NCBI GenBank assembly: GCA_964007475.1
Contig: OZ023274.1
Location: 50,735,678 to 50,799,677, forward strand
DNA: 64,000 nucleotides
Direction of reading: 5' to 3'
Origin: Hybos culiciformis
Taxonomy: Eukaryota; Arthropoda; Insecta; Diptera; Hybotidae
Position 1 is the first letter of the stretch, and each line of letters opens with the position of its first letter. Of this stretch, positions 19,201-44,244 are shown one piece after another. Under the pieces are notes generated by a model, which was not told the DNA's origin, did not search any database, and was given only the letters and a program-made list of their open reading frames with translations. The translations under genes were made by a program, and so were the position numbers.

Positions 19201-22200
19201 TTTAATGAAAATTAGGCAAAATAAAGTCAAAGATAAATAATTAAATCATTATTTGCAATACGAAAAATATTTTGTTCAATTAAATTTTGTAATAATGCTG
19301 TTAAAAGGTTTTGAATTTGTAAGTGAGAGCTTTATAGTTCTTTATGTTTTTTAAAAGTTATGTTCAAAATGTTTTTCTTAAAAATTGTTGAATGGTTATT
19401 CTAATAGTTTTATTCTAAGAAAAATTTTATACATTTTTGATTGCTTGCCATTATTAAAAACCTCAAATTCATTTTCATTGTCTTCTGATTAACGTACGTA
19501 TACTAACGTACATCATAAAAAGTTTGAAATATTGAAATATTTTTTAATTTTTAAGTATAACTTCGTTAAAATCATGACTTATTTAAATTTATATATGTTT
19601 TTGGTGATTTTGTGTACATATACTGTTCACAAAGTTGAATCTGCTCCAATCCCCAAACCCTTTTTTGGTGAAATAAAAAATTGGTTTCAAGACAAAGTTT
19701 CTAATATTCATGGCGCAATCAAAAGTTGGATACAAAGTGCTTCGGATTTTTTCGATAATATTGGTGAAAGCAAATTTTTCAAATGGGTTAAAGGAACTGC
19801 TGAGCCTTTAGCCAGAGAGTTTGTTGCAAAATGTCTTAATGAAAAAGCTGGATTAATGGCACTTGAGACAGCCATCGAAAATATGGACCAAACTGAAACT
19901 CTTATAACAAATGTGGCTGGTAGACTTGGAAAAAACTGTTTAAGCGAATACAAGGCGCTTGCTGAAATCCGTCATAGAATACAATCACATTAAAATTATT
20001 TGTTAGTTTAAATTTAAAATTTTTTAAATAAAAATATGTATGTTTTTAAATTTGATGTCTCATTTAATAATTTAAAGTTGTCGTGCAGGATAAGTTTCAG
20101 AAGCTACTTATATAGTAGTGCATTTCGGATTTATATTGCTTATTATGCTTTTAAAGTGCAGTAAGACGTACATGCTTCTTTCAATTTTTTCATGTACGTA
20201 TGGCTTCTTGCTTGTTCAAAGTTTTTATAAGCCCTATTGTTTCTTTCTATTGGTTTTCAAAAGTGTCTTTGATCACGTAGCCATAGGTTTAGTGCGAAAA
20301 AGGGGTCTTAAATTCCTGATGCCCCACAGAAACACTCGAAAAGGGCTTTGCTTTTGTAGCAATGGGCTGAGTTGCTATTTGACCTATAACTATAATACGA
20401 AAAATTTAATGTATTCATTGTATAAATATTCTTGAATACTAAAAGCTAATTTCATAATTTCAGTTCTATCTCGTAACCTCATAAATAAGAAACATTGTAA
20501 CTCCTACGGGAAAACATTATTAAAATATTATTTGAAATAGACCTCAGTTATAAAAATAGTATGGCAGATCGATTTTCTTGCATAATCATATAATCAACTT
20601 GTAGTTCTCATTCATATAATCATTTAAAATTATTTTAAGAACCTGGGCCAAATTCTTAGTCATAATCGGGGGTTATTAATTTTATTCAGGTCCCAACAAA
20701 CGATATTTACCTCCTCATATGCTAATTTTCATCAAAAATCAATAAAAATTTAAAAAAAAATGTTGCTTTTTACCCTTGGTAAAGCGTAAAGGTGGAGTCC
20801 TTTAGCATAAAGAATCTTAATAAAATAGGACATATTTTGGCATTCAAATGTACAGAATGTTTAAAATGTACAGAACTGAAGGAAAATTAAATAGTGTAGT
20901 TAGTTTTTTTATTTTTGGTGATAAGAGAGCAAAATAAAGCAAATGATAAAATAATGTTAGCAAACCAAAAACAAATTTTGTTCCATTGAATAATAATAAT
21001 GTTGTATGATTGTTTGAATTGGTGAATGAGAACTTTATAGTTCTTTATAGTTTTTAAAAGTTACGTTCAAAATAGTTTTCTTGAAATATGTTGAATGGTT
21101 CTTCTAATAGTTTTATTCTAAGAAAAATTTTATGCATTTGTTGTAGATTGCTTTCCATTGTACTAACCTCAAATGCATTTTTATTGTTTTTCGGTTAACG
21201 AACATATAATGGCATACATAATAATAAGTTTGAAATATTGAAATATTTTTTTATTTTTAACTATAACTTTGTCAAAGTCATGACTTATTTAAATTTATAT
21301 ACGTCTTTGGTAATTTTGTGTACATATACTGTTCAGAAAGTTGAATCTGCTCCAATCCCCAAACCCTTTTTTGGTGAAATAAAAAATTGGTTTCAAGACA
21401 AAGTTTCTAATATTCATGGCGCAATCAAAAGTTGGATTCAAAAAGCTTCTGATTTTTTCGATAAAATTGGTGAAAGCAAATTTTTCAAATGGGTTAAAAA
21501 TGCTGCTCATCCTTTAGCCAGAGAGTTTGTTGAAAAATGTCTTAATGAAAAAGCTGGATTAATGGCATTTGAGACAGCAATCAAAAATATGCACCAACCC
21601 GAAATTCTTGTATTTAACGTGGCTGGTAGACTTGGAAAAAATTGTTTAAGCCAATACAAAGTGCTTGCTGAAGTCCGTCATAAAATAGAAACACATTAAA
21701 ATTATTTGTTGAATTGATTTTAAAATTATTGAATAAAAATATGTTCTTAATGTGAATTGACTTTATATTTTTTGTATTTGTTTGATAAATGAAGTATTAA
21801 ACCCGTTTTACAGTTTAAAATGTTATTCGCTTTTTAATCATATACCAATTTTAATTGAAATCCACTTTCAGCCCCTGTTCTCATCCTTTGTAACAATGGG
21901 AGGCTAAAAAATTTTTTTTTCCTTCGACATCTGATGACATTCATACAAATTGTCATGGAAACAGAAAATACAAACATCTTAGTAAATATAGATAGAAAGT
22001 TTGTTAATTCGGCGGTATTGTATAAGCCTAATTTTTTTCCTAGAATCTGCTGATGCATTAAATTCTTTCTTCGAAACTAGAGTTTTCCACTGTTTATGGC
22101 AGAAAAATGTCGACTAATAATATCAATTTTTTCTTTTTGCAGCTATGCTTCCTGTTAAAACAGATTTACCACAAGGATTATCTAAATTGTGCCCTGGTGC

Positions 22201-24304
22201 TAGACGATCATTTTTTTGTCGAATGAAAAGTAAATTACCGATACAAAATATTAAAGAAGATTTAGATGCAGTAGGCACCAATGTTCATCGACGTAAAAAT
22301 AAAGTGCATTCGGATAAAAAATATTGTGTAATTCAATGTACGGGTTATTTAAAATCATGGGCACCAGCAAAAGTTGGATCTGAAGAACATGAAAATGATT
22401 TGGACAACGACTCATGTAATTTATCCTGCTTAGTAGCTGTGGGCAGAATACCTCCTAATATGTTTAATGCATTGTACAATACTCCAAATAATAATAACTT
22501 GACATCTCTGAGACAAATACAATTTATTTCACGGCATGCAATGGATGGAAAATTTTTATTTGTTGATCAGAGGTATAATATGAGAAGAACATAGTAATTT
22601 TAAACTATGTGTATGAATTATTATGGTTTTTAAAAGAATTCAATGAATCTGAAAGCTTTTTTGTGTGTGTTTAATTACAAGAATCTCAAAAATTCAGATG
22701 AACTCTATTAATATTTACTATCAATATCATCGCTCGTAGTTTTCATGATAATGATCCACTTAAACTTAGTTTTCAAAACTAAATAAGTTTCTTTCTTCAT
22801 TTCCAAAGATTTTTATATTTAAGTTAGGTATATCGAAATAGTTGAATGCAATTCCAAAGTAGGTCATTTCTTTGTCGCATGAGCCACAACTTTTATTGAA
22901 TTCTGCCACAAAAAACAATCAAAATAAATGCTTTCTAATTTTTTAAATGTTCGATTCTTAAATTATGTATTAAATTTAATATTTTGTTCTATTTAAGGGC
23001 GACTCTGGTTTTAGGATTCTTACCTCAAGAGTTGTTAGGTTCCAGCATGTACGAATACTATAATCATGAAGATATACCAGGTTTGGCTGAAGCACATCGT
23101 ACAACCTTACAAACCTCAGAAAAAATAATGACACCAGTTTATCGTTTTAGAATGAAAGATAATGGTTTCATACGATTACAAAGTGAATGGAAATCATTTA
23201 AAAATCCTTGGACAAAGGATTTGGAATATATAATGGCTAAAAATTTTGTAATATTGTAATACATAATTTTTTTCAAATAATATATAATATATACAATTAG
23301 CTTTAATATATTACACTTTAGTTTATTTATACAAAACTGCTACATTGGATACGTACATACAAACTACAAACACAAATATTTTTTTTGAATTATTAAAGAA
23401 GGCGCTTCCAAATAAATGTTTGCTTTTTTTATAGAAATTATTCTGCTAAAGATTCTGGAACATATCCGAATGAGAGCACCTTATCCGGGAATTTTGATTT
23501 TTTCAATCAATGTTAGTAGTCGTCATAAAATTTTCTAGGACATTACAAATATAATACAAAACTTCTCTAATTCTATAGCTAATGGCAGGGAAATACAAAG
23601 AATAATCAATTCACATGTAGAAGCTGGAAAAATAGGTCGTCAAATTGCAGAGCAAGTATTAGATTATCAAAGACGAGTTAGTGATTCTTCTAATGGTAAA
23701 ACATTTAATTGAATGCAATTAAGATAAAATTCAAATTCAATTAATATTTTTTATATTAACTAATTAAAGATAATAGTCCAGATCCAGAATCAAATAACGG
23801 CAATTTTATTCATACACTTTCTTCTGGTGAAAATAGTACATGTGAATTAGGAATTGACAGAGCAATGGAATCAAATTTACCAAAACTAAATGGTACTTTA
23901 CCAAATTTCAGTCATGTTCGAAGTAATTTTTCAATGAGCTCAGAAAATGGTAAGGACAAATTTATTAGCTCACAAAAATTTTAATTTATTTGTTAAGAAT
24001 ATATTTACATATTTTTGTATGATATATTTTCCTTCATTGAATTGAATTAATTCTCCAAATTATTTTTATTTATTTCAGCTATTGATGGTGAAGTAACACC
24101 ATTTAATGAATCTCCTAATCAACCAGAAACTACTGAGGGAAATGATGAAGCTGCAATGGCTGTTATCATGAGTCTTTTAGAGGCTGACGCTGGTTTGGGT
24201 ATAATTCAGCGTAGAATTTTTGATAAGTTAATAATGATTATTTTTTTATTGTGATTTTAGGTGGTCCAGTGGATTATAGTGGATTACCTTGGCCCTTGCC
24301 ATAA
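16233..24304 (+). CDS. cyc: Circadian bHLH-PAS transcription factor CYCLE (BMAL1/ARNTL orthologue), 10 coding exons
   Basis: Predicted 650-aa nuclear partner of CLOCK that binds E-boxes and drives clock-gene transcription. Exons: 16233-16441, 17180-17248, 17716-18164, 22143-22572, 22998-23255, 23435-23511, 23579-23695, 23770-23949, 24079-24198, 24261-24304. N-terminal RKRKYS resembles the BMAL1 nuclear-localisation signal. The bHLH (about residues 93-145) has [14 protein letters not shown], with His96, Glu100 and Arg104 as the E-box-reading triad. PAS-A begins near residue 160 ([18 protein letters not shown]). PAS-B follows ([37 protein letters not shown]). The extreme C terminus (617-650: [18 protein letters not shown], ending GLPWPLP) is the BMAL1 transactivation domain, absent from Drosophila CYC. 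For exon 7 I chose the acceptor at 23579, since the earlier AG at 23539 would give an immediate stop. A polyadenylation signal AATAAA lies at 24336. Intron 3 hosts two other genes. Confidence 0.96.
19532..19993 (+). CDS. Small secreted protein, copy 1, nested in cycle intron 3
   Basis: Single-exon ORF of 153 codons on the same strand as its host gene. I do not recognise the family. The likely start is the second Met (19574): [18 protein letters not shown] forms a signal peptide with a plausible cleavage after VES, leaving a mature protein of about 116 residues that starts [10 protein letters not shown]. The upstream in-frame ATG at 19532 would add [14 protein letters not shown]. The mature part is rich in Trp, Phe and Lys with spaced amphipathic segments ([22 protein letters not shown]), has two Cys (in AKCLNEKAG and GKNCLSEY) that could form one disulfide, and no transmembrane segment. 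AATAAA at 20027 gives a polyadenylation signal. A TATA-like box lies at 19081. The ORF is kept intact in both copies, so it is probably a real gene. The function is unknown; a secreted or salivary/defence peptide is only a guess. Confidence 0.8.
   Translation: MKYFLIFKYNFVKIMTYLNLYMFLVILCTYTVHKVESAPIPKPFFGEIKNWFQDKVSNIHGAIKSWIQSASDFFDNIGESKFFKWVKGTAEPLAREFVAKCLNEKAGLMALETAIENMDQTETLITNVAGRLGKNCLSEYKALAEIRHRIQSH
21238..21699 (+). CDS. Small secreted protein, copy 2, nested in cycle intron 3
   Basis: Tandem paralogue of the gene at 19532, same length (153 codons), same strand, no indels. The preferred start is again the second Met (21280), giving signal peptide [18 protein letters not shown] with cleavage after VES and an identical mature start [10 protein letters not shown]. 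The first third of the mature protein is identical between copies, while the rest differs at about 18-19 residues, many changing charge (for example SASDFFDNI versus KASDFFDKI, and KGTAEP versus KNAAHP). Both Cys are conserved ([17 protein letters not shown]). AATAAA lies at 21732. The TATA-like box seen upstream of copy 1 is missing here. The family is not recognised; retention of an intact frame despite many replacements argues for a working gene. Confidence 0.8.
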   Translation: MKYFFIFNYNFVKVMTYLNLYTSLVILCTYTVQKVESAPIPKPFFGEIKNWFQDKVSNIHGAIKSWIQKASDFFDKIGESKFFKWVKNAAHPLAREFVEKCLNEKAGLMAFETAIKNMHQPEILVFNVAGRLGKNCLSQYKVLAEVRHKIETH

Positions 24305-25165: not shown

Positions 25166-28098
25166 TCAAATGCGGCAAAATTTCACTTTATATGGTTTTG
25201 GAGATAAAAATACGCCTGGCATCAAATCTGTACTGGGAACATTATGACCTTCCGGTAATATTATTTTAAAATTTTTAACAATTCCTGTGAAAAATGTTTT
25301 TATACATGATTTTGCTAGTGCATCGCCTAAACAACGTCTCTTTCCCTGACCAAAAGGTGTGAAATACTCAAATTTGATAATATTCATTTTTTCATCCAGA
25401 AATCGTTCTGGTCTAAAATTTTCTGGATCTTTCCATAACTCTTTATTCATCATAACTGATCTAAGTCCAAGTAAAACTGTTGTATTCTTTGGAATGTCAT
25501 ATCCGTCGAGCTTAGTGTCATTTAGAACTCTTCTAGGTCCAGTTAATGGTACAAAATTAAAATACCTATGAATTTCAAATAAAAATGCCTCAGAGAATGG
25601 TAAAGCTGAGTTTTTATCATTTTTATTTAATTCATCTCTAATTGCGTCTTGTAAGTCTGGGCGAACAACCATCATCATTAAAGCTAAGTCTAATGTTATT
25701 TTTGATGTAGTTACTCCAGCAATGAATATATCCAAAATTATCATAATCAACTGGATTTCTGTAAAATTTGTATTTTTTATGTGTTCATTACTTTTCATCT
25801 CTTTGATGTAGGCATAAATAAAATCGTCATTAGAATTATATTCAGCGTATGTTTTTTTATGCTCCTCTACAACATCCATAATAAATGATCGTAATTTTTG
25901 ATTCAAACTACATATTAAATTGTATCCTATTGATTCTGGAGCAATATAACGTAGCCAAGGAAGTTGAGACATAACTCCACCACATAAGTCAAATGCTTTT
26001 GATCTTTGATCAAGTAATTCTAATATTTGATTTAATTTCTGATCATTTTTTTCTAATCGTTTGCCAGCAACTAGAGCCCAAAGCACATTTAGAACACTTG
26101 GAGCTAAAAAACTTCCAGGGCGTATTTCTTTTTCATTGAAATCCATTATTGTCTCAACAATGTCATTACATTCGTTTTCGATGTGCGTGTCCATCTCTGC
26201 TCTACCGTAACCTACTTCTCTTAAATGACGCATACAAAAACTACGTTGTTCCGACCAAAACATTCCATCAGTTGAAGTTATTCCAAGACGTGTACCCATT
26301 GTTCTCAGGCGCATGAAAAAATTGTCTGGCCTTCCCTGATATTCATCATTTGTGTGGATTTCTTTCAATAAAGGATAAGAACGGGCAACTACGACTAATT
26401 GATTACCCAACTTAATACCAAGCACATTAGTTTTAAATTGTTTTGACCATTTTTCAAATGCAGCATGTTGTCCATTTAAAGCTTTTGATAAATTCCTTAA
26501 TTGATATGTGTTTCCAAAGTAAGGCCACCATTGTGGACCTAAAAAAACCCATAATGTATAAGTATAATGTATAATGTATAAAAAAGGTAAGAAAATCTAC
26601 AGATTATCAGATTATAAATTTTGTTTTATTTAAGTGAAAAAAAATTTATATGACGATTTTTTTTTACTATTTGTTTTTTATTATTTGTTTAGATTTTTAA
26701 AAATATCACATTAAATCATAAATATTATATTTATTTATTTATATAATCACTTTAATTTCTATTTAACAAATTTATTATTTAATTTTTATGTTATCTAACA
26801 GATTAACTTTAATCCTGTGCAATTTATTTGTAAACAACCGAATTGGGTGGGCCTATGTTTTTCTTTTGTACTTCTCATATCTGGAAGAATTGTAGGTATG
26901 TACATATATCAAATTTAATAAAACGGCTTCAGATCAAAACACTTTTAAGCGTCGAAAATAATTTAAGTTATTACAAAATTTGATTTTTTAATAAATTTAT
27001 TTAATTAATTATGATTAAAATTATATATTCAAGTTTATATAAAATAAATTCATATTTTATTCCAGTTTCACTGAAGGGCCTTAATAAAAAAACATGAAAA
27101 TTGAGAATTAATGTACGATTTTGTTTTAAACACAAACTCTGTCCGTTTGTTATTTTGTCGTCAAATCTTCCAATTGATATTTGACCCACTTCCCGCGAAC
27201 CGATTTAGTTGAAGCTTTGCACAGATCCTTCTTTCCGCGGTAACTCAACTCCAGCTCGTCGGTAACGCAGTTTTGTCGGTAACTAAAAAATTATTAAACT
27301 ACAAAATGAAATAAGCGGAGTTTAAAATTTTGAGTAAAAATTAAGATTTATACAAAATTTCAGAATAATCAGTTCGGAGAAAAGAGTCAAAAGTTAATTG
27401 CAAATTGACATTCACTGGTGTTCACTATATCGTGGGGTTTTCATAAAACGAACATTGGCCTTTTTCTTTAATAGCCCCATGAAAAATATGCATGTCTAAT
27501 GCAAAACTGATATTGAACTTTTTATAATTAAATTTGTGGATTAATTGATTTTATAATAAAATTAACTAATCGCACTAAAATTGAAAAGAGCCCTAATAAC
27601 TTCACCTGGCAATTTATTTTTAAACAACTTTGTAATTATAGAACATCTTAACTTATTCAGAACACAGTAGAGTCGTAATATGAAATTAGTTATATAATAA
27701 AGAAGTATTAACTATTAACACATAATTCACAGAAAAGAACCATAAAAGATAAACTTCAATTAACAATCTTTAAAATTTCTTTCTTCAATAAGTATCTGTC
27801 ATAAAATAGTACCTAATATGTATTAAATTTTTTGAGGAATAAAATTCAGATAAAAATAAAATCTATATAATTTTGCGTAATTATATTAGTAGCCTTGAAC
27901 CTTCTGCGCAGTATAATGAAACTTCATGCTACACGTGGTAGGTACTATTAGTGGTACAAATAAAATCAAAAAATTGAAACTGTATCTAATAAATAAACAA
28001 ACTTTACCGGGTGGATAATTATGTGGCCGTTTTAATGATTTATACAAATATAATATGATAATTATAATTAAAGCACAGAGTGCATTTGAAAAACTCAT
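25166..28098 (-). CDS. Cytochrome P450, CYP2 clan (CYP303/CYP305-like), two exons
   Basis: Predicted 487-aa microsomal P450. Exon 1 is 28098-28008 (ATG, membrane anchor SNALCALIIIIILYLY, then RPHNYPPG); exon 2 is 26538-25166, a single 1.37-kb exon after a 1469-bp intron, joined in phase 1 at the PPG-P hinge. Family marks: WSEQR of helix C (residues 125-129), EIHR of the K-helix ExxR (352-355), PERF (407-410), and the haem loop FGQGKRRCLG with Cys433 as thiolate ligand. The substrate-side motif RPDNFFMRLRTMGTRLGIT is typical of insect CYP2-clan enzymes. Oddity: the I-helix reads AGVTTS (304-309), so the usual acidic residue of AGx(D/E)T is Thr. Family naming within the clan is uncertain, and the substrate is unknown. 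It is head to head with the P450 at 31163. Confidence 0.92.
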
Positions 28099-31162: not shown

Positions 31163-32864
31163 ATGATAGTTTTTCTTTTTTTGCTTGCTCTGTGTTTAAT
31201 TTATTTATGGAAAGATACAAGAAAACCTAATAATTTTCCACCAGGTATGAAGAATTTCCAAGTATTTTTGATAGGTTAACAAATCTATTACATAATAATA
31301 TTATTTACAGGACCGACATGGCTTCCAATTGTTGGTTGCATTCCGGTGCTGAGAACATTTCGTAATAAATTTAAATATCATCATTTAATGTGGCAATATT
31401 TTTCCCATAAATATGGAGACGTAACTGGCTTTCGCATTGGTCGTGAAAAACTTATTGTGGTTTCTGGTGTAGATGCTATTAAAGAATTCTATCAAAATGA
31501 TGCGTTTAATTGTCGACCCAATGGTTTCTTTTTTAAAATACGAACTTTTAATAAGAGACTTGGAATTGTTTTTGCAGATGGCCAAGATTGGGAAATACAT
31601 AGAAAATTTTCTGGAAAAGTTTTAAAACAATTACGCATGGGAAAATCATCTTCAAACCATATTGAACTTGAAGCCGCAGAAATGGTTAATTATTTCAAAA
31701 CAAAAGTTAGTTCGAAAGCATTGTTGGAAATGCAGCATATTTTCGATATACCAGTTCTGAATATTATCTGGTCTTTATTGTCCGGATATAGATTCTGTGC
31801 TGAAGATGATAATTGCTTGCATTTATTAAAATTAGTTCACGAGAGTTTCCGTGTGATCGACATGTCCGGTGGAATATTAAATCAATTCCCCTTCATTCGT
31901 TATATATTTCCTAAATTGTCTGGTTACAAAAAATTAATTGAAACAACAAAACCATTATGGAAATTTTTGAATGAAAAAATTGCAGAAATTCATTCTAATT
32001 TAAACTCAAATGAAGATAGTTCCAGTTTTATAGAATCATTTTTGAAGCAAATGGCAAAAAATAAAAGTGAAATATTTTCAACAGAGCAATTGCTCTCCGT
32101 TTGTGTCGATTTTTTTCAAGCAGGCTCCGAAACAACAAGTAATACATTAGGATTTGCCATAATTTATATGTTACATTATCCTACAGTTTTGAAAAAAGTT
32201 CGTAATGAACTGGACAAAGTAGTAGGAAGGAATAATTTGCCGAAATTGAAACATAAAAGTATGTTACCTTATTCAGAGGCAGTTATTAATGAAATTCAAC
32301 GAATAACAAATGTTGCTCCTATGGGTAAGTAAAAGCTCACAATAGTTTCATTAGCTAAAGATCGAAGCGCGTCAAATTGAGACGTCACTAATAAAAACTT
32401 TTTTCTTAAATTTATATAGGGATAGCACATCGTGTTTCCAATGATTCAAAGTTTAGAGGTTATAAACTTCCAAAAGACACGATTGCATTAATTTCCCTTT
32501 ACAGCTCTAGTATGGATAAGAACTATTGGAAGGATCCTCATGTTTTTAAACCCGAAAGATTTTTAGACTCAAAAACAGGAAAATTTATTCAATGTGAATA
32601 TTTTTTTCCATTTGGTTTAGGTAAGTTTTACATTTGTTCAAAATTTAAATTCTATTATAATTTTCGGTATTTACTTTAATTCCAGGAAAACGTCGATGTG
32701 TTGGTGAAGATTTAGCTAAATCCAGTTTGTTCATATTTTTTACATCATTTTGTAATTTTTTTGATGTAGAATTGCATGGATCTAGTTTGCCGGATGTACA
32801 AGGAATTGATGGAATTACTATTTCACCTCCGAAATTTTCTGGCTATTTAAAATTAAGAAAATAG
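31163..32864 (+). CDS. Cytochrome P450, CYP2 clan (CYP303/CYP305-like), four exons
   Basis: Predicted 491-aa microsomal P450. Exons: 31163-31244, 31311-32324, 32420-32620, 32686-32864, all phase 1 junctions. The N terminus MIVFLFLLALCLIYLW is the membrane anchor, followed by the proline hinge NNFPPGPTWLP. Canonical elements: WEIHR of helix C (residues 121-125), AGSETT of the I-helix (298-303), EIQR of the K-helix (355-358), and the haem loop FGLGKRRCVG with Cys437 as ligand. The last intron falls inside the haem loop, between FGLG and KRRC. The NGFFFKIRTFNKRLGIVF block parallels the neighbouring P450 and marks them as relatives within the clan, but divergence and different exon structures show this is not a recent duplicate. 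The substrate is unknown. The gene ends 221 bp from the stop of the LBD-only receptor gene (tail to tail). Confidence 0.93.
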
Positions 32865-33085: not shown

Positions 33086-34539
33086 TTAGAATTCAATTGT
33101 ACGATTTTCAGCTGATCCGATTTCATTTTCACGCAATTCGAGTTCGGTTATTGCAAAATTGTCTGTTTCATATTTTAATTTTTCTAAATTGACAATAATT
33201 GATACATCTCGAAGTAAATTAATTCCAATTTTTTCCAAATATTCAACTACAGCTTTCTTTGCCAGCCTTCGGATTCGATGCATTATCGCAAGCATTTTTC
33301 CACATTTGGACTAAAAATTCCAAATAAAAATGTTAGCTTTAATGTGAACATCATTTTATATCATTGATAAAGTTGTTATGATCTGAACGTTGCTATGTAT
33401 TAAAGCAAAATGTGTTTTTGAAGTAGTCAAAAGATTATGTAAGCCAACACGAATACTTACTTGAATGCGCACCACTCTCGATTTAATGTCTCTATATGCT
33501 ACAATAACATCGTGATATTTGGACAAGCATGGATCACTAAATCGTGTACCTTAAAAATCACATATTTGAAATAAAATAAAAAATCGTATTCTCTCGTTAT
33601 AAATTGAATGTTAGAAAAATTTAATTCAATACATATAGTTAAATACTTTAAATGCAGGTAGGTACATTGAATAGATTGAATCAAACAAACTCATCTACCG
33701 TAGCATTAAAACAATACTTTAAACCACGATGAGGTTCGAAGTAGAAAAAAAATTATTTACCTGGGTTCAGAAACATTAAATACTTGAGGACAGCATAGTC
33801 AGTAGAATCAAAATCTAAATCTCTCAAATCATTTTGTAATGTGAAAATATCATTTGCTACGCTAAGATTGCCAAAAACAGCAAGACTATGTAAGTTAAAT
33901 CTTATATTTTTATCGAGTTCAATAACATTTGGTAAATCATAATTTAGTCGTTGATGCAGGTAACCTAATATTATTAGTTCAGGCCATGTTCTTTCCAATA
34001 GCTTAAATTTATGTTGTTCCTTAAAATTTTAAATATATTAAAAAAATATATCTATTATTTGTATCAACAGAAAAAATAAATTTTTGTACGCTCAAATGAA
34101 TTGGTATATTGCTTTCTTTAAGCCATGCAACTTCTTCAGCCAAAAGAGTTCTAACACCTTGGTCCAACAAAATTTCCATTAGCTTATTAGTTTCGCCATC
34201 GGGAATAATGGAAATAATTTCATTTAATTTTTTACGTAAATTTTCTTGCCATCTATTTCCAATTACTGACATAATAATTGGTTCAAGCGTTTTCTCTAAA
34301 AGTGAATTTTATGATTAGATTAAAGCACAGATCATAATTCTAAATAATTTTTATTTATAAAAAGACAGCGAAAGTTTAGTTATTGAATTAAATGAGTAAT
34401 AGGGTTAATAGGGACTCGAAAAGAAAATTAATTAATTAAATGGAGAATCTACAATTTCAAGATCAATAAAAGAAGCGATTTAAATTCTAAACCTGCGATA
34501 GTTCTTACCAGGAGAAACAATGCTAGCAGCAGAAGACAT
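33086..34539 (-). CDS. LBD-only nuclear receptor, HR39 (NR5B) paralogue without DNA-binding domain, five exons
   Basis: Predicted 269-aa protein. Exons: 34539-34509, 34295-34090, 34019-33761, 33549-33461, 33310-33086; junction phases agree and the sum is 270 codons with stop. It starts MSSAASIVSPEKTLEP and continues straight into LBD helices; no zinc finger or Ftz-F1 box is found. It aligns with the neighbouring Hr39: exon 3 is 259 bp in both, gap-free, with about 31 of 86 residues identical (KLLERTWPELIILGYLHQRL against [20 protein letters not shown]). The three downstream introns sit at the same positions and phases. Exon 4 is 12 bp shorter than in HR39. The AF-2 helix (LLMEML in HR39) is replaced by IIVNLE, so classical coactivator binding is doubtful. 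The start follows a sequence with no acceptor AG, so this ATG is probably the first. It may act as a partner or inhibitor; this is inference. The donor after exon 2 (GTACAA) is weak. Confidence 0.85.
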
Positions 34540-37500
34540 TTTAATATAGATTTATTTTTGGAATTTTTTTATTTTAAAACCGTAATAAATTTTTTTAAAT
34601 TAAATAAATCAACAAATATTTTTATTTCAACAGTTTTTTTTTAATACTAATTTTATCAACTTTTGTTTAGTTTTCAAATTAAAAATTTTTGTCTATAGAC
34701 GAAGAAACAATAAAATTATTTCTATTCATATAAATGTTTGAGCGATATCAGAACTATTTCATTGATCTTTAATTTGAAAATAAATTATAAAGAAATTTTG
34801 AAAAAAAATTACATTAGTGGTGTTAAGTTTAATTTTGTATATTTCATGAAATGATTTTTTTATTCAAAATATGAAGTGAACATGTTTTTAAGTTATTACA
34901 CACTATTTCCTAAATGATTATAGATATTGGTGCTCATAGTTGTACACAAATATTAAATTTTTGAGATGTTTAATACCCATAGGAACAAAAAAAAATTAAA
35001 AAAAAAAAATTATTCCTAAATTTTTATTTTACATAAGAAATTTAATTGATAATAGATAATTAAGGACTGACTTTATCATCCAATTGACTTTATTGCTGCA
35101 TATTTTAATGAATAAATTAGGTGTATGTATACTTGATGTTATAATAGAGACAATTTAAACACCACAAACCAACTATCATATGAAATAAGCAATGAACTAT
35201 ATTTATTGTCAAAAATATTATATACTTAGATACTCATATCATGTACTAAAGGTGCCTGCTATAATATGCAAAAAAAAACAACCAATTTTTTTGAGATTTT
35301 TAAAAATAATTAATTTTTATTTAAAATATTCATAATCACAATCATAAATTTCCATTTCAAACGGATAAAATTTATTTTTTAATCTTAATATTTTATCATT
35401 TTTTTATTTCTTTTTTTCCTTCAAAGATTTTATTCATTCTAAACTAAAATTAGCTAAAAGAATTTTATTTTTTTTTTTTAATTTATTAAATTAATTTTTG
35501 TATTTTTCTTTTTCCTCATGTTATTATTTGCAAAAAAAACTTCCTAACTTTAGTTATATATAAAAAAATAATAATTGTTAAACATTATATTCAAAAAAAA
35601 AAAGGAATACAGTATAAATTACAAAAAATTTGAAACCAATCTACGAAATTTTATTTTTTAATAAAATATAGAATTTATGATATTGGATAGGAGATCTTGA
35701 CGAATGAAATAAAAAATTTTATATAAAGTATAATATTGAATTCGTTGTGGTATGCTTTGCAAACAAAATTCAATATTTTGATATAATTTAATATTCTATT
35801 CTTTGGAATTTACGATTTAAGTTGAATTTTTGAAATATTTTATTATCAAACGAATTTATACTATAAATAACTAACTTAATTGATTGGCTTAAGTCGAACT
35901 CTTTAAGCAGTGATTAGCTGAAGCTAGTTCGCATTTTATTACTATAGAATCGATTGTTGAATTTTATCAAGTCGATTGTTCTTGCTGAATCAATCAAATT
36001 TCTACATAATTTTTAAATTTACCAATTCATTCTTACTTTTTCATTTTTTTCAAGTACCCAATTTTAACATATTTTTAGGTGTTATATTTAAACATTAAAT
36101 ACGTTGTGATTTGAACATTAGGGTGACATTATTGGAAAATAATAATTTTCTTTTTTTATTTTCGTAGTAATTTTTTCAGCTCATCATTTAAGTCACTGAT
36201 TAACCAAATATTTAAATTTCAATTTTTTTTGGATAATTTAAATTAAATAAAAGAAATGTTCTAATAAAAAATCGAGAATGTCTGATCCCCATCCAATATT
36301 AAGAAATAGAAAATAACTTCTTTGACTTGGTAACTATTGTTATGTATTATATAATGTATATATTTTAAAAAGTTTGTTAGTGTAAGAATTTTTATAGCTT
36401 ACAATTTTTTTTTTATTCTTAATTTTAGTGTGAATTTATTTTCTTTTAATAATAACTATACATTTTTTATTAACATATTATACACATATTTTCATATATT
36501 TAAATTAATTTTTACAGTGAATTTTTAATATACATTTAATATTTTGTATATATTTTTTTAACTTTTTAAAATAAGTAATTTTATTTTTTTTTTGTTTTAA
36601 ATCTTTTATAATGTGAAAAATTCTTTGATCATTAAAGTATTTTATGCGATTAATAATAATTGAGGTGCATATAGTAAGATAATATATTTTAATTTTATAA
36701 AATTTTAAATTCATTAGCCAATTTTTATTAAATAAAGATTATAATTGAGTTGAAGTTTTCATGAAATTATTGGCTTAGTCAGCAGAAGTTTGTTAAATTC
36801 AAGTTTATAATATTTAGGTATAATTTTTTTTTTAAATTATGACTTATCACAACAGAGCACCCTCTAAATGTCGTACTTTAAATTGTAGGTACTCCTCAGA
36901 AGCAATACTTAGGAAGGAGATATTTTAACTGAAAAAATAATTTCATATTAGTTTTTTTTTTTACAAAGGTTTCTCAAGTTATGTAAAACAATAATTATTC
37001 TAAAATACTTTATTGATCTTTAAGAACATTATGGTGATGATAAGGAATTTTCTACAAGCGTTCTTAATTTGTTTTTGACAGCAATGCGTAAAATAAACAT
37101 TAAATCAAATTATAATTATTAAATCGTTATTAATTTTTTGTTTTGTGTAAGTTGATTTTGGGCTCCTATTCTACTTATTTTTCTTTTTAAAACTTCAAGT
37201 ACAGAGACAAAATTATAAATTAAACAGAAAATAAACTGATATCCTTTTAGTTTTAGGAAACCAATTTGAAAATTTTGTATATCGATGATATAAGAGTATT
37301 GCATATTTTCTGTATTTTTACGCTCATGTTGTCCCTTAAAGATTTTTGATTCCGTATAATTGATTTGAAACTTATTCACATAATAATTATAAGCTTGCTG
37401 TATTTTATTTTTTACTTACATCATCAGCAAAATGATAAATTCATGTTTTTTTTTTTTTTTCATTTGTATTTACATTACTTACAACACTCTTACAAATTAC

Positions 37501-41662: not shown

Positions 41663-44244
41663 TTACACTTTTCGTTTAGCATGTAACATTTCCATAAGAA
41701 GCGTTTGCGTGGGTGCACTACCTGCACAATGCTTAACATATAAATGTTCTTCACCTCGTGTTGCCATTGCATGTATTTCAGGTAAAATATTTAATAGTCT
41801 GCTGAATTTATCCTAAAATTAACAAAAAATCTTATCATGTTTTGTCATATAAATAAAAGAAACAAATTCAGTTCATGCTTAATTTACGAAAATTTCTTTA
41901 TTAATTAAAAAACGATTTTTAAATTTTTACCGTCACTGATGGATAACAAGTTAGTGTGTAATCCAGAAGTGCTGCTTGTACATTTTCATGTCCTTCTAAC
42001 ACTGTTTTCTTATTGATTATCCCTCGAACACCTGGAAATAATTATAAATTTGAAATAAATTATTAAAAAAGGGTGATATTTACAAAATACAATATTTGTT
42101 TCGAATTTTAAAATCAATATTATAATATTTTTAATATTTCAATCACACACAGAGGCAGACAAAATATAAGTTTATAATAAATATTATTCTTGATTTTATT
42201 CTACAAAGGAAACAAAAACTTACCTGGATTAAGTAAAATTAAAAATTTCATGCAGACATAATCACCCATATCGAATTTAAGTTCTTGTAATTTATTTTGC
42301 AATTCATTAAAATAATCTCCTAATTGAGGAACTCCAAGCAAACCTAAACCCAATAAGTTAAAAACTTGACCATTATTTAATTGTGTCTCATCTGGTAAGC
42401 CATTATGTATTCTTTGATGTAAATGATCTAAAACTAACATATCTGACCATGAATGTTGCAGGAGTTTCATTTGATCATCAACCTATAAAAGTTTGAAGTT
42501 AATTAGAAATATTGAAATTCTAAATCGTTTTTTCCGTGAATGAATAATATTAAAATGGTGAAAAAACTACTTTATATACGTAATAATTATTTTCATGAAG
42601 AAACATTACCCTTATCTTATCAATATTAATGGAAATAAAAATTGATAATTCTTACTTTGAGATCCTTAAAAAAAATTGTGTTTCTAGCCCAATCAACCTG
42701 GGAAAATAGATTTTGGTCCAAAACTTTGCACATTAATTCAAAGAGATCAACTTCAACTTGATTATAGGATTGTTTTTGAAGCAGAGCAAATAATTGCGTT
42801 TGCCATTCCCGATCATCTATTGATTGGACAAATTCCCTTATCATAGGCGAAACCCTAAAATGAGATAATATAAAAAATATTTTATATCATATTTACAAGT
42901 TATAAGAGTTACCTAAGCGGCTCCACTGTATCCGCTGTACTAGATGGGTTTGTACCCGTATCAAAGCTAAAAAAAATATCAAATTAAATTGTACATATCA
43001 TTTTGTAAAAAAAAAAAATAGTGAACGTTATTTAATAACAAACCATATTTTGGAATCTGAACTATGTTGTATAGAGCTAGAATTAGATTCTTGACCACAG
43101 CTTGTACTGCTTGTTCCGTTACCGCTTGTGCCGCTAACTGTCGTTGTATTTGTAGATCCTAAAGATGAATTTCCACTCAATGAGGTCGCTATTATAGCTG
43201 AGCTAGGATTAACTTGACCAAGGGCAATAGCTATAGGACTTGGCGATGAATCAGGAGATTGTGTTAATGAAGATACCTTTAGAAATTGTAAAGTAATAAA
43301 ATTTTTTATAAGAATCATGTTATAGAATTATGGAAGGCTCTGTTTTCCTAATATAATAAACAAATTATGATGTATAAAAATTAACCATAAATTATAATAT
43401 GAGCCCTTCATAACTTTTATAACTTATTTTCAAACAAAATTTTATTATATAAAAGTTATTAACTCTTTAAACCTTCTTATGTTAACTATGTATACATAAC
43501 AAATATTTATTCGAAATGTTCACAACAAAAAACAAAATACGTTAAAGTTACGATGATAGTAAATTTTTGTACTGAAGTTACTTAAATCTTACGGAGATAA
43601 AGCGGCTCTTATAATTTTTTATGGTAATGATTTATTCAAAATGCCTTATTCTATTTTGTTTTTTATTTTTTTTACGTATACATAAATGTAAAATGTAAGT
43701 ACAAATTTATTTAAAAATAAATTGCCATTAAGATTCCTGCTTAAGCAGCGACTACGTAAGAAAGCTGCAAAGTTTTTAGAAGATTGCAGTTTCGAAATAT
43801 TCAATTTTTAGAATATTGTTATTTATATAATGTAAGAAATTTTGGCTTTTTTATTATTTATTTATTAATTTATTATACATATTATATATAAAAAAAGCAG
43901 TCAAAATAAATATCTATGACGTATAAATATTAAAAAATGTTGATTTACTTTACTTAATGCAATATCAGTATAACGTCACCTTCACTTCTAAATTAGCCTC
44001 AAAAAGAATTGCCGACTTACCTGTGGTATTTGAATTTCTTGTTTTATACTCATACTTGGATAAGAACTTGTATAACCTGTTGGGGAGATTTGACCAGGTT
44101 TTAAATCTGATGATCCCATTGAAGTTCTAATAGCCTGTAACGCTAACTGCCTCTGTCGCATCATTTGTAATTTTCTCGCCCTGTCACGCTTATACATTGG
44201 TCCAAATTTATTTCTACCACCACGCATTCGGTCTGCTCGAACAG
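41663..44244 (-). CDS. Hr39: Nuclear receptor HR39 (NR5B, Ftz-F1-beta), 3' exons: Ftz-F1 box, hinge and ligand-binding domain
   Basis: Partial CDS, 405 residues plus a split first codon. Exons: 44244-44021, 43276-43044, 42966-42913, 42854-42656, 42482-42224, 42031-41931, 41812-41663. The first exon opens with (A)[18 protein letters not shown], the Ftz-F1 box directly after the zinc-finger DNA-binding domain, diagnostic of NR5 receptors that bind extended YCAAGG half-sites as monomers. The next exon is a Ser/Thr/Asn-rich hinge. The LBD begins near [20 protein letters not shown], includes [20 protein letters not shown] and ends with the AF-2 helix LLMEML and the tail HAKRKV. The exon before 44244, which must encode the two zinc fingers, is not found in the following 19.7 kb. 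In Drosophila, Hr39 acts in metamorphosis and in the female reproductive glands. A partial copy of the LBD lies 7.1 kb downstream. Confidence 0.95.

Follow-up and report, generated by a model that had tools for sequence, protein, structure and literature searches.

Gene structure at the locus

The window, that is, the whole 64,000-nucleotide stretch of the Hybos culiciformis genome analysed here (C2:50735678-50799677), carries the nuclear receptor gene FTZ-F1 (NR5A3) on its minus strand. A smaller gene related to it, here called the paralogue, lies 7.1 kb downstream on the same strand and encodes a putative receptor reduced to a ligand-binding domain (LBD). Five minus-strand exons of the paralogue are spliced into a frame of 269 codons plus a stop; all introns (4/4) are GT-AG, the first (between exons 1 and 2) being in phase 1 and the LBD introns in phases 0, 1 and 0. 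Coordinates and exon count agree with those of an initial annotation of this DNA. The exons are as follows.

34509..34539, minus strand: exon 1, start codon and MSSAASIVSP, with a phase-1 donor
34090..34295, minus strand: exon 2, 206 nt, where the LBD begins (region of helices 1-3 by alignment)
33761..34019, minus strand: exon 3, 259 nt, core of the LBD, aligned to FTZ-F1 without gaps
33461..33549, minus strand: exon 4, 89 nt (101 nt in FTZ-F1)
33086..33310, minus strand: exon 5, 225 nt including the stop (150 nt in FTZ-F1), with a possible helix 10/11 remnant and a longer tail, and with no activation function 2 (AF-2) core

The paralogue has its own ATG, as had been proposed. An in-frame TAA lies 15 nt upstream of this codon with no AG between them, and when 34296-36500 was scanned for any ATG that reaches a phase-1 GTRAG donor within 300 nt without a stop, exon 1 was the sole exon found. 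By eye, VSP in exon 1 follows a C/T-rich stretch and an AG, just as is seen where the first FTZ-F1 LBD exon begins (42854), and the frame is the same. The start codon may sit in a former splice-acceptor region.

The exons of the neighbouring gene that correspond to the LBD of the paralogue, and those preceding them, are the following.

C2:50803121-50803324, 3.4 kb past the window edge: FTZ-F1 zinc-finger exon, ending in phase 1
44021..44244, minus strand: FTZ-F1 exon with the FTZ-F1 box
43044..43276, minus strand: FTZ-F1 hinge exon, phase-2 donor
42913..42966, minus strand: FTZ-F1 hinge exon, phase-2 donor
42656..42854, minus strand: first FTZ-F1 LBD exon, corresponding to paralogue exon 2
42224..42482, minus strand: FTZ-F1 LBD exon, 259 nt, corresponding to paralogue exon 3
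41931..42031, minus strand: FTZ-F1 LBD exon, corresponding to paralogue exon 4
41663..41812, minus strand: last FTZ-F1 exon, with AF-2

This neighbour had been taken for HR39, an identification that does not survive comparison. Its LBD matches that of Drosophila FTZ-F1 (structure 2xhs) with an E value of 4e-149 and 216/234 identical residues, and FTZ-F1 of Zeugodacus cucurbitae is the second-best match in a protein search, at 93% identity (120 of the 381 matches are listed). The box agrees with that of Drosophila FTZ-F1 at 29/30 residues, as given in table 3 in the available part of PMC2774871, and the AF-2 text is the same as that shown for Drosophila FTZ-F1 in excerpts of PMC10465699. On sequence likeness, the gene beside the paralogue is FTZ-F1. 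A second NR5-type gene lies on C3, and from its DNA-binding domain (DBD) we take it to be HR39 (NR5B1).

Parentage of the paralogue

At the three LBD boundaries, the introns of the paralogue and FTZ-F1 coincide in place and phase (0, 1, 0), and the 259-nt exon has the same length in both genes and aligns without a gap, so that both observations of the initial annotation stand. At the boundary between exons 1 and 2, the intron is in phase 1 in the paralogue and in phase 2 at the matching FTZ-F1 boundary. The alignment of the two proteins scores 197, against a mean of 33.5 and a maximum of 70 for shuffled sequences (n=500), with 62/218 aligned residues shared (~28% identity). Pfam PF00104 recognises residues 68-213 of the paralogue at 25.0 bits (cut-off 23.5). 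The top match among solved structures is the Drosophila FTZ-F1 LBD (2xhs; 3.6e-17), and no NR0B molecule is named among the 60 listed of 110 such matches.

HR39 was considered as the parent and rejected. Compared with the paralogue, the FTZ-F1 LBD reaches z = 31 and the HR39 LBD of the same genome only z = 2, the latter being incomplete because its last exon was not found; even this partial LBD scores z = 15 against FTZ-F1, and HR39 lies on a different chromosome. The proposal of a partial tandem duplication of an NR5B gene is accordingly to be amended: a partial, LBD-only tandem copy of an NR5 gene is indeed present, whereas its parent is FTZ-F1, an NR5A gene. In the HR39 gene (C3:10014000-10019000), an intron seems to follow LNKG, close to the position that the NPG intron occupies in FTZ-F1 and the paralogue.

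The signal of homology is distributed unevenly along the protein: strong for exon 3, intermediate for exon 2, and faint or lacking for exons 4 and 5. For exon 3, 32/87 residues are identical to FTZ-F1 in a gap-free pairwise alignment whose score was reached by 0/2000 shuffles, and a four-sequence profile gives 54.8 bits. The pairwise score of exon 2 against its FTZ-F1 counterpart was reached by 6/2000 shuffles. With the profile, exons 4 and 5 together score 5.7 bits (reached by 3/2000 shuffles) and exon 5 by itself 4.5 bits (9/2000). The LBD core of the paralogue is certain, and the homology of its last exons rests mainly on gene structure.

Missing receptor parts

In a whole-genome search with zf-C4 (PF00105), 0/35 matches fell within the window, the nearest being the FTZ-F1 zinc-finger exon; the gene model of the paralogue has no zinc-finger exon, as had been noted from the start. 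When the FTZ-F1 DBD, box and hinge were searched by tblastn in 30.0-41.65 kb, the best E value was 4 and no real match was seen, and tblastn with another DBD sequence gave no significant match other than the known FTZ-F1 box. Hidden or duplicated DBD or hinge exons were also considered and rejected, there being no further significant tblastn match in these searches and no run of N (assembly gap) in the window.

The AF-2 core pattern (two hydrophobic residues, any residue, an acidic residue and two hydrophobic residues) has 0 matches in the paralogue, while FTZ-F1 has LLMEML. Excerpts of PMC10465699 describe the AF-2 motif as critical for Ftz-F1 activity in vivo and place the residues that are shifted most by a partner peptide in AF-2. 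In the paralogue, a basic residue of helix 3 is retained as lysine (WAR in FTZ-F1, WLK in the paralogue). This residue is part of the charge clamp.

The main structural rival to a separate gene is that exons 2-5 serve as an alternative 3' end of FTZ-F1, the zinc-finger exon being spliced onto exon 2. The resulting receptor would have a DBD and a divergent LBD but would lack the FTZ-F1 box. Such a join would be in frame, since the zinc-finger exon has a phase-1 donor and exon 2 a phase-1 acceptor, and the two exons lie on the same strand about 33 kb apart. However, phases would match by chance about one time in three, and the paralogue starts with an ATG exon of its own, preceded by an in-frame stop. 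Neither the box exon (phase 0) nor either hinge exon (phase 2) is compatible with exon 2. The join would also skip the FTZ-F1 box, which the available part of PMC2774871 describes as important for high-affinity DNA contact. We regard an alternative 3' end as quite unlikely.

Coding signal and selection

In 5/5 exons of the paralogue, the frame used outscores the other two sense frames, at 0.25-0.80 bits per codon, and background readings were at most 0.09 (n=405). GC content at codon positions 1, 2 and 3 is 0.452, 0.293 and 0.230 in the paralogue and 0.469, 0.396 and 0.236 in FTZ-F1, the two genes being close at positions 1 and 3. Neutral decay was simulated by letting the FTZ-F1 LBD decay to the same identity, with an assumed equilibrium of 23% GC, in 1000 runs. 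These yielded a mean of 16.7 stops (6 to 32), against 0 in the paralogue, and a GC content at first positions of at most 0.434.

These values bear on the possibility that the paralogue is a pseudogene, in which a partial duplicate is decaying and has kept an open frame only by chance. A missing AF-2 core, the weak-looking donor of exon 2 (gtacaa) and the failure of the protein searches to detect an orthologue would suit such a remnant, and the difference in GC content between first and third positions (0.222) falls inside the simulated maximum of 0.230 (mean 0.119). Yet not one simulated run had fewer than 6 stops, the coding signal extends to every exon, and the frame is intact although silent sites look saturated, with the same codon at 14/30 shared degenerate residues where 15.9 are expected. 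A pseudogene is therefore very unlikely in our judgement.

In exon 3, the paralogue agrees with FTZ-F1 at 40, 63 and 46 of 86 first, second and third codon positions, where composition alone predicts 21, 29 and 29. Of the residues that do not vary in a set of 10 NR5A proteins (7 from the 120 listed search matches, three from elsewhere), the paralogue keeps 18/43, compared with 42/184 for other residues (Fisher p 0.011; rank test 1.3e-4). Because of the absence of stops, which is the strongest item, together with coding composition and the retention of conserved residues, maintenance of the paralogue by selection is favoured, though only indirectly.

Divergence and copy number

A whole-genome search returned 5 matches, which are four paralogue exons and the FTZ-F1 counterpart, and no other copy (4 candidates scored). 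The branch leading to the paralogue is very long, at 6.5 changes per column under LG+G4 (range 6.5 to 10). Trees in which it is held with fly FTZ-F1s are not rejected (p-AU 0.139), nor are those in which it is held with Hybos FTZ-F1 alone (0.202), and trees cannot date the duplication. Of 8 positions whose residue sets the five compared fly FTZ-F1s apart, 2 show the fly residue in the paralogue and none shows any of the other listed states, a weak indication.

Divergence of this order would also suit a functional LBD-only gene that is no longer tied to FTZ-F1 and has taken on a new role, such as that of a fast-evolving scaffold or dimer partner. The long branch, the small share of aligned residues in common with FTZ-F1 (62/218) and the 74 residues of exon 5, which are largely new, all point in this direction. 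Against it stand the clear conservation of exon 3 and the preferential retention, overall, of NR5A-conserved residues. Given such extreme divergence, the odds that the product acts independently of FTZ-F1 are only slightly lower than those of an off-DNA modulator of FTZ-F1, and we hold this proposal to be tentative and on balance doubtful.

A candidate off-DNA modulator

The reading that we prefer, with a rough probability of 0.42, is that the paralogue is a coding gene derived from an old partial tandem duplication of FTZ-F1, and that its LBD-only product most likely dampens FTZ-F1 or another receptor off DNA. The duplication would have copied only the 3' exons of FTZ-F1, in tandem and long ago, and the predicted product would be an LBD without DBD, FTZ-F1 box or recognisable AF-2 core. 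Such a protein would presumably be unable to bind FTZ-F1 sites or to recruit AF-2 coactivators in the usual way; since it lacks zinc fingers and AF-2, no activation of FTZ-F1 targets is expected. A receptor-like core that adjoins its parent suggests a modulator acting off DNA on FTZ-F1 or another receptor, which might compete for partners or contact the receptor LBD, with dampening as the probable net effect. Inhibition of FTZ-F1 by the paralogue would be plausible.

Several results weigh against this reading, in addition to the exon 2 donor and the GC difference given above. The initial annotation had the alignment run through the last exon, and this is not borne out by pairwise comparison: the score of exon 4 was matched or beaten by 1066/2000 shuffles and that of exon 5 by 245/2000. 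Because homology is barely visible in exons 4 and 5, and the profile gives exon 2 by itself -1.0 bits, the predicted fold of the paralogue is unproven outside exon 3. In exon 4, another frame comes close to the one used (0.36 vs 0.40), and in the tiny exon 1 an antisense frame beats it (1.34 vs 0.80). In exon 3, first codon positions agree less with FTZ-F1 (40/86) than third positions do (46/86), and constraint on FTZ-F1 itself contributes to the contrast among codon positions. Divided by part, retention of invariant residues gives Fisher values of 0.005 for exon 2, 0.52 for exon 3 (rank test 0.013) and 0.15 for exons 4-5; tested against LRH-1 alone, it gives 0.046 overall and 0.43 in exon 3. 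No orthologue was detected in the protein collection, where 0/727 candidates reached E 0.001 in a search that also missed FTZ-F1, which is present there, and a query with exon 3 returned no candidate; these searches need shared five-residue words and are hence weak tests for orthologues. Finally, no LxxLL motif is present in the paralogue. It does have looser leucine patterns, for example LMEIL at 49-53, to be set beside the LxxLL-type receptor-binding motifs known in NR0B.

The initial annotation had also raised a sink for a ligand, and a lipid or ligand sink for FTZ-F1 or HR39 would be in keeping with the retained LBD-like core. It is not favoured, because in the Drosophila FTZ-F1 LBD the pocket is filled by a helix, and the gap-free retention of exon 3, which contains this region, also argues against it. 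We consider a sink highly improbable.

A stronger form of the dampening hypothesis is that a brake on an NR5A receptor, comparable to DAX-1/SHP, arose independently in a dance-fly lineage. Copying of just the LBD half of FTZ-F1, with loss of the activation helix, would have given a tandem dominant-negative regulator of this molting and reproduction receptor. This more specific proposal we rate as rather unlikely.

Comparison with known receptors

FTZ-F1 is the source of the paralogue and resembles it in intron phases, in the 259-nt exon and as its best sequence match. Zinc fingers, the FTZ-F1 box and the AF-2 core, all present in FTZ-F1, are missing from the paralogue. HR39, its NR5 relative on C3, shows hardly any similarity to it (z = 2, with a partial LBD).

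DAX-1 and SHP (NR0B1 and NR0B2) are vertebrate repressors of NR5A receptors and, like the paralogue, consist of an LBD without a zinc-finger DBD. Since their targets are NR5A receptors, the paralogue stands closer to them than it would under HR39 parentage. Their tie to NR5A is one of repression, whereas that of the paralogue is one of descent. By the results here the paralogue is not an NR0B orthologue, its top match and its gene structure being those of FTZ-F1. It also differs in having no AF-2 core and, looser leucine patterns aside, no LxxLL.

FTZ-F1 is required for insect molting and reproduction, and its vertebrate relatives are restrained by LBD-only receptors. Should the paralogue prove to be expressed and to dampen FTZ-F1, one regulatory design would have arisen twice, here by a partial tandem duplication still visible beside the parent. 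A fly-made equivalent of NR0B would, if real, be new relative to a fly survey that detected no NR0B member, as far as the available part of that source goes (PMC7074177).

LBD-only receptors have been described in other animals. According to the portion of PMC10435515 available, the spider mite has 47 HR96-like LBD-only genes, including one pair in tandem, and RNA interference against them alters gene expression. They are arthropod LBD-only paralogues like the one described here, but they are HR96-like and number 47, as opposed to a single FTZ-F1-derived copy known from its sequence. The mite genes show LBD-only paralogues of arthropods to be capable of influencing gene expression (PMC10435515, in part). 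Among flies, BdE78, BdHR51 and BdDSF of Bactrocera dorsalis are given as lacking a DBD in excerpts of PMC7074177 (the BdDSF sequence being incomplete); they share the LBD-only state with the paralogue, but are orthologues of ordinary receptors and not a tandem NR5A copy. Oyster CgNR0B and ctenophore receptors without a DBD (PMC4070562, PMC3038971) are likewise LBD-only invertebrate receptors, but belong to other lineages, and no tandem NR5A origin is stated for them in the parts of these papers available. Neither FTZ-F1 duplicates nor insect NR5 receptors without a DBD appear in the titles or abstract openings among the literature matches listed. LBD-only receptors are thus already known, and derivation from an insect NR5A gene is the new variant.

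Other genes in and beyond the window

The four zf-C4 matches L023 (on C108), L024, L025 and L026 (on C2) are presumably knirps-type; L025 and L026, the two that were read, look alike. An open frame at 21199-21699 (plus strand) contains a stretch that looks by eye like a signal peptide, and Pfam gives it no match. A bHLH-PAS-type gene at 22121-23984 (plus strand), which we take to resemble Cycle/BMAL, has a PAS_11 match of 54 bits at 22939-23259 and no Pfam match in the frame 22121-22594.

Two cytochrome P450 genes lie near the paralogue, at 31280-32864 (plus strand) and 25166-26596 (minus strand). With PF00067, the frame 31280-32332 scores 205 bits and the gene at 25166-26596 scores 263 bits. 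By eye, the plus-strand P450 seems to end ~220 bp from the stop codon of the paralogue, the two genes lying tail to tail.
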